Both the position numbers and the translations under genes were made by a program. A DNA stretch of 56,433 nucleotides from Actinomycetota bacterium (GTDB lineage Bacteria; Actinomycetota; Acidimicrobiia; IMCC26256; JAENVU01), in NCBI GenBank assembly GCA_016870395.1, contig VGBT01000016.1, positions 1-56,433 of the forward strand, in the 5' to 3' direction. This document shows positions 30,090 to 54,314 of this stretch, piece after piece (within the stretch, counting starts at the first letter, position 1; each line of letters starts with the position of its first letter). The notes under the pieces are model-generated. The model made no database searches. It was not told where the DNA came from and saw only the letters and a list, made by a program, of their open reading frames with translations.

Positions 30090-30197
30090 CGTGGGGATCT
30101 CCGGGACATCGGCTCGGGGCGTGAGGTGGAGGGCTCAGGATACGAGAGCGGGCCTCGCTCCCTCGACGGGAACGGCCGGATGGCGCGGCAGCGATGG

Positions 30198-30240
30198 TTC
30201 ACGTCGGCGTAACAATCCCGAAATCTGGCCGCCGTACGGT
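30198..30240 (+). promoter_or_regulatory. GlnR-like box and -10 ahead of the regulator/antiporter-GlnD genes
   Basis: TTCAC (30198-30202), N6, GTAAC (30209-30213), N6, GAAAT (30220-30224), N10, TACGGT (30235-30240). GTAAC-N6-GAAAT fits the gTnAC-N6-GAAAc unit recognised by GlnR in Actinobacteria. The same elements at the same spacing occur before the ammonium transporter at 52610-52652. The ATG follows the -10 by 7 bp, so the transcript is probably leaderless. Confidence 0.55.
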
Positions 30241-30247
30241 GCCCGTC

Positions 30248-30754
30248 ATGGCCGTCGTCCTGGTGCGTTGGCCGGAGCAGGCCGAGCGACTGGGCCCCTT
30301 GCGGCAAGCCTTGACCCCCCGTCTGCTGCTGGTCGCACCCGACGTCTTGGCGCCCGCACCGGTCGACCCGCTCGAGGACTGGGTGCGCCTCCCCGCCGCC
30401 GACGGCGACGTGCGCGCCCGGCTCGCGACCCTCGAGGCCCGTGCCGCCGCCGCCTCACCGCTGCCCACGATCGACGACGACGGGATCCTGCGCTTCCGCG
30501 ACGGCTGGGTTCCGCTCTCGCCGGTGGAGCGCGGGCTCGCGCAGGCCCTCGTCGAGCGGTACGGCGCGGTGGTCGGGCGGGAGGTGCTGTCACGCCGGGC
30601 ATGGCCGTGCGGCGCGCCCACCCGGAACGCGCTGGACGTGCACATCCTGCGACTGCGACGCCGGATCGCGACCGTCGGGCTCGAGGTCCGCACGGTGCGA
30701 TCGCGGGGCTACCTCCTCCAGGTCGCGACGGTCGCCGTCGACCTGGCTCGCTGA
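30248..30754 (+). CDS. Winged-helix regulator with vestigial receiver (GlnR-like build)
   Basis: 168 residues. The C-terminal half is an OmpR-type DNA-binding domain: WVPLSPVERGLAQALVERY, GREVLSRRAWP, LDVHILRLRRRIATVG and VRTVRSRGYLLQV. The N-terminal 75 residues are a shortened, phosphorylation-incompetent receiver-like region with RLLLVAPDVLAP and VRARLATLEARA and no acidic pocket. GlnR has the same plan, but with a full-length atypical receiver. It ends 6 bp before the antiporter-GlnD fusion, so the two form one unit. Inference: it may regulate this locus and nitrogen genes; a direct GlnR orthologue is not proven. Confidence 0.65.
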   Translation: MAVVLVRWPEQAERLGPLRQALTPRLLLVAPDVLAPAPVDPLEDWVRLPAADGDVRARLATLEARAAAASPLPTIDDDGILRFRDGWVPLSPVERGLAQALVERYGAVVGREVLSRRAWPCGAPTRNALDVHILRLRRRIATVGLEVRTVRSRGYLLQVATVAVDLAR

Positions 30755-30760
30755 GCGCTC

Positions 30761-33466
30761 GTGCCAGTGAGCGTCAGCGAGATCCTCCTCGACATCCTGA
30801 TCGTCCTCGTGGCCGCAAAGCTCGCGGCCGAGGTCGCCGAGCGCCTCGGTGTCCCCGCGGTCGTCGGCGAGATCACGGCCGGGGTGTTGATCGGCCCCTC
30901 GGTGCTCGGCATGGTGGGCTCCACCGAGGTGCTCGAGGTTCTCGGTGAGCTCGGGGTGATCCTGCTGCTCCTCCAGGTCGGCCTGGAGATGGACGTGCGC
31001 GACCTGGCTGCCGTCGGTCGTGCCTCGATGACCGTGGCGGTGATCGGCGTCGTGCTGCCGATGGCCGGCGGGATCGGAGTCGCCGTCGCGTTCGGCGAGT
31101 CCTCCGACGTCGCGCTGTTCGTCGGAGCGGCCCTCGCGGCGACGAGCGTGGGAATCACCGCGCGGGTCTTCAGTGACCTGCGCGCGCTGTCGTCGGTGGA
31201 GGCCCGCACCGTGCTCGGCGCCGCGGTGGCCGACGACGTGCTCGGGCTCGTGATCCTCACCGTCGTCGTGCGCATCGCCACAGAGGGCGGTGTGTCGCTG
31301 CTCACCGTTCTGGGCATCGTCGGCGTCGCGGTCGGCTTCCTCGTGGTCACGGTCGCGCTCGGCGGCCGGATCGCGCCGCCGTTGTTCGAGTTCGTGCAAC
31401 GAAACGCGCGCTCGGCCGGCACCTTGGTCGCGCTCGCCTTGGCGTTCACACTCGCGTTCGCGCAGCTGGCCGAGGCCGCGAAGCTGGCTCCGATCGTCGG
31501 TGCGTTCGTCGCGGGACTCGCGCTCTCGCGCAGCGACCAACGGGAACGCATCGAGCGCGAGCTCGCACCGGTCGGTCACCTCTTCATCCCTGTGTTCTTC
31601 CTCGGCATCGGGATCGCGGTCGACGTCGGGTCGTTCGTCGACGGCGAGGTGCTCGCCGTCGCGGGCGCGCTCCTCGTGGTCGCGGTGATCGGCAAGCTCG
31701 TGGCCGGGACAGGAGCGATCGGGGCCCCGGGCGATCGGTGGGTCATCGGGCTCGGGATGCTGCCCCGGGGCGAGGTCGGGCTCATCTTCGCGACGATCGG
31801 GCTGCAGCGCGGGGTGCTCGACGACTCCCTCTATGCCGCGCTCCTGCTCGTGGTCCTCGCCACGACGCTCATGACCCCGTCGCTGCTGCGGCGCCGGATG
31901 GCCCGGGTGCGTGGCGCGGCCGCGCCGGTGGTTGCCGAGCCCATGCCCGAAGCCGGGTGGTTGTGGGTCGACGACGGCGTGGTGGACCTCGTTGCCGAGC
32001 CGCCCGACCATGCCTTGCTGACGATCGCGCTCCAGGCCGCGGGCGCGATCACGGTGGGGGCGCGCCCGGGCCGCAGGCTGCTGGACCGGCTCGGCGCCAT
32101 CGGCCAGGAGATGCCCCGCTGGGACCCGGCCGCCACCGACCGGCTCTTCGAGGTCCTGGCCCGAGGCAACGAGCGCACGTGGCGCTTCCTCGAGACGACC
32201 GGTGTGCTCGAGCGGTCGCTTCCCGAGCTCGCGACGGCGGTCGAGCGGCGGCGGGCGGACCCGTACGTGCTCGACCCGAACCACGTGCTGCGCTTCGAGC
32301 TCGTGGATCGTGTCTGGGAGCTCGTCGCACGCGACGCCCGCGCGCGCGCGGCCCACGAGCACCTGTCGCATCCCGAGCGGTTGCTGCTCGCCGCGCTGGT
32401 GCTCGACGCCGCGGGCGACGGCGAGGACGCGGTGCCGCTGGCCCGCCGGCTGGTGCAGCGCCTCGACCTCGGCGCCGCGGTCGAGCAGGAGGTGGCTGCG
32501 CTCGTCGGCAACGCGGCGCTCCTGCGCGCGGCCGCCGGTCGCATCGACGGGTTGACGGAGGAGTCCGTTCTCCAGCTCGCCGCGCACCTGGAACGCACCG
32601 AGCTCGCCTGGGGCCTGTACCTCGTCGCCTTGGCTCTCGGTGACCTCGACACTGCCGGGCGGCACCGGCTGGACGAGCTCACCGACCTGGTGGTCGCGAC
32701 GCTCGAGCAGCCCACCCTCACCGGCCGTGACGCGCGCAACCTGGTGGAGCGGCGGCGCTCCGAGGCGATCCGGCTCGCTCGGGACGACGAACACGTGATC
32801 GACCGGATCATGCACGCCCCGCGCGCCTACGTGCTCACCCAGGACGCACCTGACATCGCGCGGCATGCCGCGCTCGTCGAGCCGCTCCCGCGACGCGGTC
32901 AGGTGCGCGTCGGGGTCCACGACGGTCCCGACGGCCGCGTCGTGGTCGACGTGGTCAGTCGGGACCGCCCCGGACTGCTCGCCACGGTCACCGGAGTGCT
33001 CGTGCGCGAAGGTCTCGAGGTAAACGACGCGCTGGTCGCGACATGGGGCGACGGCGGCGCGCTCGAGAGCTTCGTCGTCCGCGTCGCGGCCGGCACCGAG
33101 CCATCCGACGCGGACCGCCTCGCGACTGCAGTCGAGCATGCCCTCGGTACGCCGCTCGGGGCCCCGGAGAACCCCGAGGCGGAGGTGCGCTTCGACGACG
33201 CCGGGTCGCCCTGGTACACGGTCTGCGAGGTGCGCAGCCCGGACCGGCCCGGCCTGCTGCACCAGATCGCCGTGGGTCTCGCGGCCGCTGGGGCGAGCGT
33301 GCACTCCGCAAAGGTCGAGACCGTCGGCGGCGTCGCGGTCGACCGGTTCCACCTCACCGACGCGAACGGCGCCAAGCTCGGCGGCGAGCGGAAGGACGCG
33401 GTGCGCGCGGCGATCGTCGGTGGTGTCCGGTCCCGCCGTCGACTCCTCGGCCGCATCGCGGTGTGA
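30761..33466 (+). CDS. CPA2 cation:proton antiporter fused to the regulatory half of GlnD
   Basis: 901 residues. Residues 1 to about 390 are a 12-13 TM CPA2 exchanger: ERLGVPAVVGEITAGVLIGP, the conserved ADDVLGLVILTVVV with the ion-binding Asp pair, GAFVAGLALSRSDQRERIE, GIGIAVDVG and GMLPRGEVGLIFATIGL. From about 405 the sequence follows GlnD after its nucleotidyltransferase: a linker helix bundle with FLETTGVLERSLPELATAV, an HD-type region (about 504-680, DPNHVLRFELVDRVWELV) whose LHDIGKG motif is replaced by LDAAGDGED, and two ACT domains (about 725-800, SRDRPGLLATVTGVL; about 817-890, SPDRPGLLHQIAVGL). No nucleotidyltransferase is present. In GlnD the ACT domains sense glutamine, so ion exchange here may be gated by nitrogen status. 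Start GTG 30761; GTG 30767 is possible. Confidence 0.85.
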   Translation: MPVSVSEILLDILIVLVAAKLAAEVAERLGVPAVVGEITAGVLIGPSVLGMVGSTEVLEVLGELGVILLLLQVGLEMDVRDLAAVGRASMTVAVIGVVLPMAGGIGVAVAFGESSDVALFVGAALAATSVGITARVFSDLRALSSVEARTVLGAAVADDVLGLVILTVVVRIATEGGVSLLTVLGIVGVAVGFLVVTVALGGRIAPPLFEFVQRNARSAGTLVALALAFTLAFAQLAEAAKLAPIVGAFVAGLALSRSDQRERIERELAPVGHLFIPVFFLGIGIAVDVGSFVDGEVLAVAGALLVVAVIGKLVAGTGAIGAPGDRWVIGLGMLPRGEVGLIFATIGLQRGVLDDSLYAALLLVVLATTLMTPSLLRRRMARVRGAAAPVVAEPMPEAGWLWVDDGVVDLVAEPPDHALLTIALQAAGAITVGARPGRRLLDRLGAIGQEMPRWDPAATDRLFEVLARGNERTWRFLETTGVLERSLPELATAVERRRADPYVLDPNHVLRFELVDRVWELVARDARARAAHEHLSHPERLLLAALVLDAAGDGEDAVPLARRLVQRLDLGAAVEQEVAALVGNAALLRAAAGRIDGLTEESVLQLAAHLERTELAWGLYLVALALGDLDTAGRHRLDELTDLVVATLEQPTLTGRDARNLVERRRSEAIRLARDDEHVIDRIMHAPRAYVLTQDAPDIARHAALVEPLPRRGQVRVGVHDGPDGRVVVDVVSRDRPGLLATVTGVLVREGLEVNDALVATWGDGGALESFVVRVAAGTEPSDADRLATAVEHALGTPLGAPENPEAEVRFDDAGSPWYTVCEVRSPDRPGLLHQIAVGLAAAGASVHSAKVETVGGVAVDRFHLTDANGAKLGGERKDAVRAAIVGGVRSRRRLLGRIAV

Positions 33467-39165: not shown

Positions 39166-40774
39166 GGGAGGCCTCCCCGCGCGGGTCGAGGTCTACGACA
39201 CGACGCTGCGCGACGGCGCGCAGCTCGAGGGTATCTCGCTGACCGTCGACGACAAGCTTCGCATCGCCGAGCAGCTCGACTGGCTCGGAGTCGACTACAT
39301 CGAGGCCGGTTGGCCGGGAGCGAACCCGAAGGACGACGAGCTCTTCCGCCGGGCGGCGAAGGAACTCCAGCTCACGACGAGCCGGCTCGTCGCGTTCGGG
39401 ATGACCCGCCGGGTGAAGGGCAAGGTCGATGCCGACGACACGCTCCGCCACCTCGTGGAGGCCGGCACGGACTCGGTCTGCATCGTCGGCAAGTGCTGGG
39501 ACTACCACGTTACCGAGGCACTGGGCACGACGCTGGACGAAGGCGTGGCCATGGTGACCGACTCCGTCGAGTACCTCAAGGGCCTCGGGCGCGAAGTGCT
39601 CTTCGACGCCGAGCACTTCTTCGATGGGTACAAGCACAACCCCGAGTTCGGCTTCCGAGTCCTCGAGGGTGCGGTCACGGCAGGAGCCGACCGGCTGGTC
39701 CTCTGCGACACGAATGGCGGCGCGCTGCCCTTCGAGGTCGAGCACATCGTGCGCTCCGTCGTCGACTACTTCGGTGCCGAGGTCGCGGTCGGCGTGCATC
39801 TGCACGACGACGCAGGGTGCGGCGTCGCCAACGCCCTGGCCGGTGTGCGCGGCGGGGCGACCCAGGTGCAGGGGACGATCAACGGCTACGGCGAGCGCAC
39901 CGGGAACTGCAACCTCACGTCCATCATCCCGAACCTCTCGTTGAAGATGGGCGTCGAGACGCTGCCGCCCGGCCGCCTGGAGCGGCTCACTCCGGTCGCC
40001 CACCACGTGGCCGAGCTGGTGAACATGGCGCTGAACCCCCAGGCGCCGTACGTGGGCTCCTCGGCCTTCGCGCACAAGGCGGGCCTGCACGTGAGCGCGA
40101 TCGCCAAGCGCCCGGACGCGTACGAGCACGTGCATCCCGACCTGGTCGGCAACGGCACGCGCTTCGTGATGTCGGAGCTGGCGGGTCGCTCGACGATCCT
40201 GCTCAAGGCGGCCGAGCTCGGGCTCGAGCTCGACGGCCCGACCGTCAACGAGGTGGTCGACACCCTCAAGCAGCTCGAGCACGAGGGCTACCACTTCGAG
40301 GTGGCCGACGCGTCGCTCGAGCTGCTGATGCGGCGAGCCGCGGGCTGGGAGCCGGGCTGGTTCCACGTCGAGTCGTTCCGTGTCATCACCGACGACGCGA
40401 GCCCCGAGACCGCGACCGACCGCGAGCCCGACGGGGTCACCACGGAGGCGACGATCAAGCTGCACATCGGCGAGGAGCGGCTGATCGCGACCGCGGAGGG
40501 CAACGGGCCGGTCAACGCTTTGGACCGCGCGCTGCGCCACGCCCTGGCGGGTCGCTACCCGGCGCTCGATCGGCTCCACCTCACCGACTACAAGGTGCGT
40601 GTGCTCGACACCCAGAGGGGAACGGGGGCGGTCACCCGGGTCCTGCTCGACTCCACCGACGGGGAGGCCAGCTGGACCACCATCGGGGTGAGCGAGAACA
40701 TCATCGAGGCGAGCTGGCAGGCGCTTCACGACTCGCTCGTCTACGGCTTGCTCCGGGCCTCGGCCCGCGGGTAG
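39155..40774 (+). CDS. cimA: (R)-citramalate synthase
   Basis: 539 residues. TIM barrel with VYDTTLRDGAQLEGISLTVD, DYIEAGWPGANPKD, HLHDDAGCGVANALAG and QGTINGYGERTGNCNLTSII; GAQ instead of GEQ and the GWPG motif mark the CimA branch. The C-terminal regulatory domain (about 385-539) ends in an allosteric fold with HIGEERLIATAEGNGPVNAL. It condenses acetyl-CoA and pyruvate, giving a threonine-independent route to 2-oxobutyrate and isoleucine, which fits the Ile codons in the leader. Confidence 0.92.
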   Translation: MSGEGGLPARVEVYDTTLRDGAQLEGISLTVDDKLRIAEQLDWLGVDYIEAGWPGANPKDDELFRRAAKELQLTTSRLVAFGMTRRVKGKVDADDTLRHLVEAGTDSVCIVGKCWDYHVTEALGTTLDEGVAMVTDSVEYLKGLGREVLFDAEHFFDGYKHNPEFGFRVLEGAVTAGADRLVLCDTNGGALPFEVEHIVRSVVDYFGAEVAVGVHLHDDAGCGVANALAGVRGGATQVQGTINGYGERTGNCNLTSIIPNLSLKMGVETLPPGRLERLTPVAHHVAELVNMALNPQAPYVGSSAFAHKAGLHVSAIAKRPDAYEHVHPDLVGNGTRFVMSELAGRSTILLKAAELGLELDGPTVNEVVDTLKQLEHEGYHFEVADASLELLMRRAAGWEPGWFHVESFRVITDDASPETATDREPDGVTTEATIKLHIGEERLIATAEGNGPVNALDRALRHALAGRYPALDRLHLTDYKVRVLDTQRGTGAVTRVLLDSTDGEASWTTIGVSENIIEASWQALHDSLVYGLLRASARG

Positions 40775-52652: not shown

Positions 52653-52730
52653 CCCCTGGGTCACTGGTGGAGTGGGTGGACGGAGGGGCAGCGGCGCCCC
52701 GGTGGCACCCCCGTGTCCTGGGAGGACAGC

Positions 52731-54314
52731 GTGAGACTGACTTCAAGGAGGATCGCGATGCTGGGTGTGCTGAGCGCCCTGTTCGTGGTTCTGTTCGCCG
52801 CGCCTGCGTTCGCGGCCGAGCCCAAGCCGGTGTACGACGCCCCGGCGCCGGCGGCCTCCGACGTTGCCGTCAGCTTGAACCTGCTGTGGGTCGTGATCGG
52901 CGCGTTGCTGGTGATCTTCATGCAGGCGGGCTTCGCCATGGTCGAGACCGGGTTCTGCCGGGCGAAGCACGCGGCCCACGTGGTGTCGACGAACTTCGCG
53001 ATCTTCGGCCTCGGGTTCGTGGGCTTCTTCCTCGTGGGCTACGCGCTCATGTTCGGCGGGTTCAGCTACCCCGGCTACTTCGGCCTCGATGGCGCGACGG
53101 GCGGACCGCTCATCGGTAGCGGCTCGTGGGTGTTCCTGTGGCACGGAGGCTTCGCGTTGACGAACCTCCACGAAGGAGCGCGTCTCGCCCCCGTGGCGGC
53201 GTTCTTCCTCTACATGGTGGCGTTCATGGACACCACCGCCACGATCCCGACCGGCTCGATGGCCGAGCGCTGGAACTGGAAGGCGTTCGTGGGCTGGGGC
53301 CTGTTCTGCGGTGCCATCTACTACCCGCTGTTCGGGGCCTGGACCTGGGGTGGTGGCTGGCTCAGCCAGCTCGGCAACAGCATGGAGCTGGGCTTCGGGT
53401 ACGTCGACTTCGCCGGCTCCGGGGTGGTGCACGCGATGGGCGGCGTGGCTGGTCTGGCCGGCTCGCTCGTGCTGGGTGCTCGGATCGGCAAGTACGGCGC
53501 CGACGGCAAGCCCCGCGCCCTCGGTGGGCACAGCATCCCGATGGCGATGCTCGGCACGTTCATCCTGCTGTTCGGGTGGTTCGGCTTCAACGCCGCCTCC
53601 ACCTTCGCGGCGACGGACGTCCAATTCGCGGTCGTGGCCACGAACACCGCGATCGCGGCGGCGTTCGGTGCCACGGTGGCGATGTTCTACGTGATGGTGA
53701 GGATGGGCAAGCCCGACCCGGGCATGCTTGTGAACGGCATGCTCGCGGGCCTTGTCGCCATCACCGCACCGTGTGCGTTCGTCGACCCCTGGGTGTCGGC
53801 GATCATCGGCGGAATCGCGGCGATCATCGTGATCGAGTCGATCTTCCTCTGGGAGCGCAAGGGCATCGACGACCCGGTCGGGGCCATCTCGGTGCACGGC
53901 GTCGGCGGCATCTTCGGCGTGCTCTGCGTCGGGCTCTTCGCCAACGGCAAGTACGGCGCGGGTTGGAACCTCACGAAGAAGGGTGCGGCTACCTCGGCGT
54001 CCGGCGTCACCGGGATCTTCTACGACTTCGAGCTCGGCATCCGTCAGCTCGGAGCCCAGGTGGCAGGGGCACTGACCATCTGCATCGTGATGTTCGGCAT
54101 CGCCTACGCGTTCTTCAAGATCCAGAACGCGGTGATGAAGAACGGCATCCGGTCCCTGCCCGAGGACGAGATCATGGGCCTCGACCGGCCCGAGATGGGT
54201 GTCCTCGCCTACGACAACCTGCAGCTCAACGAGCTCGACATCGTGGGCACCGAGGCCGAGCCCGAGATGGTCATGTCGGGCGGTCCCTCGCCCGACCCGA
54301 CGATCGGTCGGTAG
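52731..54314 (+). CDS. amt: Ammonium transporter
   Basis: 527 residues. A cleavable N-terminal signal (LGVLSALFVVLFAAPAFA) precedes 11 TM segments. Family features: FMQAGFAMVETGFCRAKHAA, MVAFMDTTATIPTGSMAERW, the pore twin His in GSGVVHAMGGVAGLAGSLVL (about residue 233) and SVHGVGGIFGVL (about 388), and the tail GIRSLPEDEIMGLDRPEMG. Conducts ammonium in a PII-controlled manner in most bacteria; no glnK follows here. Start GTG 52731 is chosen for GGGAGG at the right distance; GTG 52713 is the longer option. Confidence 0.93.
   Translation: MRLTSRRIAMLGVLSALFVVLFAAPAFAAEPKPVYDAPAPAASDVAVSLNLLWVVIGALLVIFMQAGFAMVETGFCRAKHAAHVVSTNFAIFGLGFVGFFLVGYALMFGGFSYPGYFGLDGATGGPLIGSGSWVFLWHGGFALTNLHEGARLAPVAAFFLYMVAFMDTTATIPTGSMAERWNWKAFVGWGLFCGAIYYPLFGAWTWGGGWLSQLGNSMELGFGYVDFAGSGVVHAMGGVAGLAGSLVLGARIGKYGADGKPRALGGHSIPMAMLGTFILLFGWFGFNAASTFAATDVQFAVVATNTAIAAAFGATVAMFYVMVRMGKPDPGMLVNGMLAGLVAITAPCAFVDPWVSAIIGGIAAIIVIESIFLWERKGIDDPVGAISVHGVGGIFGVLCVGLFANGKYGAGWNLTKKGAATSASGVTGIFYDFELGIRQLGAQVAGALTICIVMFGIAYAFFKIQNAVMKNGIRSLPEDEIMGLDRPEMGVLAYDNLQLNELDIVGTEAEPEMVMSGGPSPDPTIGR

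Follow-up and report, generated by a model that had tools for sequence, protein, structure and literature searches.

A membrane ion exchanger and a shortened copy of GlnD joined in a single protein of uncultured Actinomycetota

An uncultured member of the Actinomycetota encodes a membrane ion exchanger and a shortened copy of GlnD in a single protein. The complete gene (901 amino acids, GTG start) lies at positions 30761–33466 (+) of the window, the 56,433-nucleotide stretch of DNA that was analyzed, and the upstream gene stops 6 bp before its start. Residues 1–380 are a NapA-like CPA2 antiporter, and residues 396–886 correspond to GlnD downstream of the catalytic module. The initial annotation of this DNA gave the correct coordinates, strand, and length and described a complete CPA2 exchanger followed by the post-nucleotidyltransferase part of GlnD, a description borne out by the PF00999 match, the UTase_glnD match, and a profile-profile alignment. 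With a probability of about 0.58, we propose that the fusion is a cation/H+ antiporter gated by an amino acid sensor, probably for glutamine, and that it works alongside an ammonium transporter (Amt).

According to this proposal, the NapA-type cation/H+ antiporter would have a GlnD remnant as its cytosolic tail, with sensing as the only function left to it. An amino acid indicative of nitrogen status, glutamine being the likeliest, would be bound by the two ACT domains in tandem; the pseudo-HD and helical segment would relay the change to the exchanger core; and the fusion would act with its partner Amt, such that cation or proton flux is adjusted to ammonium uptake. Amino acid binding, glutamine as the ligand, and gating of the exchanger are steps that we infer. 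A more specific version is held only tentatively: the fusion may be an ammonium-uptake ion valve, in which the built-in GlnD sensor reads glutamine and tunes the flow of a cation (Na+ or NH4+) and of protons to Amt activity, such that one protein would connect membrane energetics to nitrogen status.

The fusion is a CPA2 member by each sequence test run on it. Within the antiporter domain (30761–31900, +), the Pfam family Na_H_Exchanger (PF00999) spans residues 19–375 with 222 bits (E = 1e-65), i.e., the full-length fold, and the nearest solved relative is NapA from Thermus thermophilus (PDB: 4bwz; 374-residue alignment, E = 2.5e-64). The exchanger domain resembles NapA over its whole length, including the TSVG stretch and the ion site: D158 and D159 (31232–31237, +), in the TM5 equivalent, align to the NapA Asp-Asp pair, and K312 (31694–31696, +), in the TM10 equivalent, aligns to NapA K305. 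These three residues are kept in all of the fused and unfused relatives examined. The solved NapA chain (394 amino acids) differs in that it stops where the fusion's tail starts and lacks a cytosolic regulatory domain. An Asp/Asp/Lys site is the mark of electrogenic CPA2s/CPAs (PMC6181914), and by this criterion the predicted ion site marks the exchanger as electrogenic and of the NapA type. As a first guess from the ion-site residues, the transported cation would be Na+; the genomic context suggests that it may instead be NH4+ or K+.

The remainder of the protein is GlnD-derived. The NCBIfam P-II uridylyltransferase model UTase_glnD matches residues 430–886 (E = 1.4e-38), Pfam recognizes two ACT stretches, and a profile-profile alignment (hhalign) of 10 fusion tails with 11 GlnDs gave a probability of 100% and E = 5e-41 over 476 columns, covering residues ~300–786 of the window genome's own GlnD. 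That GlnD is encoded by a separate, complete glnD elsewhere in the genome, in a P-II operon, beside P-II and Amt. By hhalign, the tail opens with the segment that in GlnD lies between PF08335 and the HD domain (residues 396–500; 31946–32260, +), with a conserved P..GWL start, followed by a pseudo-HD region (residues 501–600; 32261–32560, +) and a helical segment of the long type found in E. coli GlnD (residues 601–712; 32561–32896, +), the last delimited from the alignment, hhalign, and an AlphaFold2 model. ACT1 (residues 713–795; 32897–33145, +) and ACT2 (residues 808–880; 33182–33400, +) were placed by Pfam, AlphaFold2, and the alignment.

Structure prediction of the tail, which the initial annotation had suggested as a check, agreed with this assignment: the AlphaFold2 tail model (pLDDT 79) matched tandem-ACT proteins and the HD/helical part of A-adding enzymes, and no RCK domain was among the 50 Foldseek matches listed. 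Pfam likewise found no RCK/TrkA_N domain in the window protein, which places it outside KefB/KefC by the domain test for those proteins. An RCK or USP tail was rejected on the Pfam scan and the structure matches of the tail model. The AlphaFold2 run on the full-length protein, made with five sequences only, reached pLDDT 53 and left the membrane part without a model. The PDB holds no GlnD structure.

Both GlnD catalytic sites are, judged by sequence, lost in the fusion. None of the fusions has the nucleotidyltransferase, PF08335, or the HD metal-ligand pattern. PF08335 (GlnD_UR_UTase) occupies residues 166–281 of the window genome's own GlnD, and the fusion tail begins after it; neither the window protein nor any of the 10 tails scanned has the domain. 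The "linker bundle" of the initial annotation, if PF08335 was meant, should therefore be dropped from the description. In an alignment of 31 fusion tails with 6 canonical GlnDs, the pattern HxxTVDxH ... LLHDxGKG was kept in the GlnDs and lost in the fusions, with LVLDAAGDG standing in the fusion at the position of GlnD LLHDVGKG and a sole isolated HD dipeptide left in one genome (G097). The earlier reading of a degraded HD motif and of an apparent loss of both enzymatic activities is upheld, with the metal-binding residues required for uridylyl removal gone and no nucleotidyltransferase domain present. Because these are two defining features of GlnD, the fusion must not be called GlnD, although its putative sensor is GlnD-derived.

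The ACT pair, by comparison, has kept its GlnD-type loops. DRPGLL motifs are present at residues 735–740 and 828–833, as the initial annotation noticed, and the loop glycine, at the position of a known ACT ligand site (the one that binds Ser in PGDH; PMC3173338), is kept in 24 of 28 fusions in ACT1 and in 27 of 28 in ACT2. Other positions are particular to the fusions: W762 in ACT1 and P817/W818, H848, and K872 in ACT2 are nearly or fully invariant among them and are not typical of GlnDs, so the ligand, its site, or an interface may have changed, and the ligand may not be glutamine. The tail is maintained, given its low dN/dS: tail regions gave values of ~0.1–0.2 for two genome pairs (G162/G329 and G000/G020), and in other pairs some regions reached ~0.3 and several were saturated. 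These ratios show purifying selection on the tail. The ACT and helical parts of the tail change faster than the exchanger; within the distal tail, the pseudo-HD and helical parts diverge fast and the best conserved stretches are in the ACT pair.

Genomic neighborhood provides the link to nitrogen. Outside the window's family, the fusion usually adjoins an ammonium transporter gene, often a P-II gene, and sometimes glnD. Amt and/or P-II adjoin the gene in 16–17 of 25 genera, and in 12 of 13 measured cases the fusion and Amt are on the same strand with a gap of ≤500 bp. Common ancestry among the genera and the manual entry of the counts make a binomial figure of 3e-23 for this linkage an overstatement of its significance. 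Genomes carry one to four Amt genes, and the one beside the fusion nearly always belongs to a clade distinct from the Amt of the amt-glnB-glnD operon. The window also holds a member of the fusion-neighbor clade, a 533-amino-acid transporter near the "marine subtype" model (52713–54314, +), but at a distance of 19 kb its linkage to the fusion is loose. Unfused orthologs of the antiporter in three genomes (G002, G173, and G404) also adjoin Amt, so the association with ammonium transport may be older than the fusion. The initial suggestion that the fusion couples ion or pH homeostasis to nitrogen status gains a link to nitrogen from these Amt and P-II neighbors; the rest of it we infer.

The same neighborhoods could be read differently, with the tail serving as a P-II docking platform instead of a small-molecule sensor: the pseudo-HD region would grip P-II without chemistry, and P-II would control the antiporter. 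GlnD normally grips P-II, a protein that signals its own modification state together with 2-oxoglutarate and ATP/ADP. Several genomes, two of which have the unfused antiporter (G173 and G002), include P-II genes in the antiporter's gene cluster, and these P-II proteins keep their T-loop tyrosines. We consider docking unlikely, however, given that conservation in the distal tail peaks in the ACT pair and not in the pseudo-HD region and that many fusion loci have Amt without a nearby P-II gene.

In the window's family, the fusion sits between leuC and greA/leuB, and Amt is not adjacent. The gene directly upstream, across the 6-bp gap, encodes a winged-helix (Trans_reg_C) regulator (30194–30754, +) that is probably co-transcribed with the fusion. 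It occupies the same position in most leu-locus relatives and in three further genomes (G007, G013, and G033), and it adjoins glnD in G355 and G013. Its N-terminal region is conserved and is not a receiver domain (RWPEE...PRLLLV...EDW.RLPA). GlnR was rejected as its identity since only weak OmpR-type C-terminal matches and no match to a GlnR model were obtained; it may be a nitrogen regulator with no relation to GlnR. Downstream of leuB, the window has a second LeuA-like match of the isopropylmalate/citramalate synthase type (approximately 39182–40516). In two ~1 Mb genomes of family f22 (L067 and L074), an unfused orthologous antiporter is divergently oriented beside leuC, like the fusion of the window's family, through either shared ancestry or coincidence.

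This location raises the alternative that the ligand of the ACT pair is not glutamine but some other amino acid, e.g., a branched-chain one, with the antiporter linked to the pathway concerned. The fusion-invariant ACT residues that are unlike GlnD are in keeping with such a change of ligand. Most other genera, including two genomes of another class (f70), have Amt or P-II neighbors and not leu genes, so placement in a leu locus may have no functional meaning, and we regard this alternative as improbable. Glutamine sensing beside Amt remains the preferred reading.

The intact single-ORF architecture was found in 26 sampled genomes from two classes of Actinomycetota (24 aligned genomes of one class and two, G432 and G418, of another), and in two more class genomes (G013 and G150) the fusion is split over contig ends. 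One narrow peptide-pattern scan covered 84,980 species genomes. Nearly all carriers are metagenome-assembled genomes, which could suggest two genes joined in silico, one of the conditions under which the initial annotation would have been withdrawn. However, the same junction recurs in many independent assemblies whose proteins are 42%–71% identical over their full length; an assembly join is therefore excluded for practical purposes. In G019 (L092, near 7279), an in-frame TGA occurs near the antiporter/tail junction, at about residue 399, after which the tail continues in frame; this is either a sequencing mistake or a sign that the two genes are separate here. A contig titled as a Bifidobacterium breve metagenome-assembled genome (L003, CAMBEL010000005.1) has a gene order nearly identical to that of the window's genus, and its name looks wrong.

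Fusion tails form one clade (support 98/93) apart from all sampled GlnDs. Several fusions are located near glnD; a recent duplication of the neighboring glnD was rejected as their source, given the separate clade. A stand-alone 470-amino-acid GlnD-like protein in G434 (L127, 4530–5942, −), with a degenerate HD, two ACT domains, and neither antiporter nor nucleotidyltransferase, is sister to the fusion tails. These relationships are most simply read as one fusion event followed by losses, with an antiporter tree too poorly resolved for proof.

The losses bear on whether the tail has a regulatory role. In five sampled genomes the tail ends ahead of the ACT domains (G021, G043, G191, G280, and G274; L071, L061, L062, L056, and L057), so the putative ACT sensor has been lost several times. 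Other lineages have tail-less orthologous antiporters, with the G173 copy nested among fused ones, and these, together with the ACT-less versions, show that some lineages can do without the tail. The truncations, the nested unfused copy, and the fast-diverging pseudo-HD and helical parts could all be explained if the tail were a structural or oligomerization appendage that binds no regulatory ligand, left over from a GlnD fusion that is being lost. That explanation is very doubtful because the tail is kept in ~20 genera of two classes, has invariant ACT residues, and shows dN/dS mostly well below 1.

No report of a CPA2 exchanger joined to GlnD or ACT domains was found in the open-access literature searched, in agreement with the initial remark that no such system was known. 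The architecture represents the sensing half of GlnD freed from catalysis, placed into an ion exchanger, and retained in two Actinomycetota classes beside ammonium transporters. If the proposed function is true, nitrogen status would act directly on ion and proton balance, and the ACT pair of GlnD would seem to be a portable sensor; the tail would also be a natural non-catalytic construct of ~500 residues with which to find where GlnD-type ACT domains bind their ligand, a site that is poorly defined.

Among known systems, GlnD is a glutamine sensor that acts through P-II modification. The tail corresponds to all of GlnD after the nucleotidyltransferase-PF08335 module, including the ACT pair, but without that module or the HD metal ligands, and it is attached to a membrane exchanger. 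In the methionine importer MetNI, an ACT-like C-terminal domain binds the transported amino acid and controls transport; MetNI is an ABC importer that senses its own substrate, whereas the ligand sensed by the fusion would differ from the ion transported. Plant ACT-repeat proteins of the ACR11 type also have a GlnD-type ACT pair without GlnD catalysis (PMC3173338), but they are soluble plastid proteins without a transporter. The nearest functional precedents are KefC and YcgO/PtsN. KefC-type exchangers are CPA2 proteins with a C-terminal cytosolic ligand-sensing domain, the KTN domain of KefC binding glutathione (PMC7349511); they have a KTN/RCK sensor and a Kef-like ion site, whereas the fusion has a GlnD-ACT tail and a NapA-like site. 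YcgO/CvrA is under the control of PtsN of the nitrogen PTS, such that K+ efflux responds to a nitrogen-related signal (PMC7349511). There the signal protein acts in trans, whereas the putative sensor of the fusion is part of the exchanger itself.
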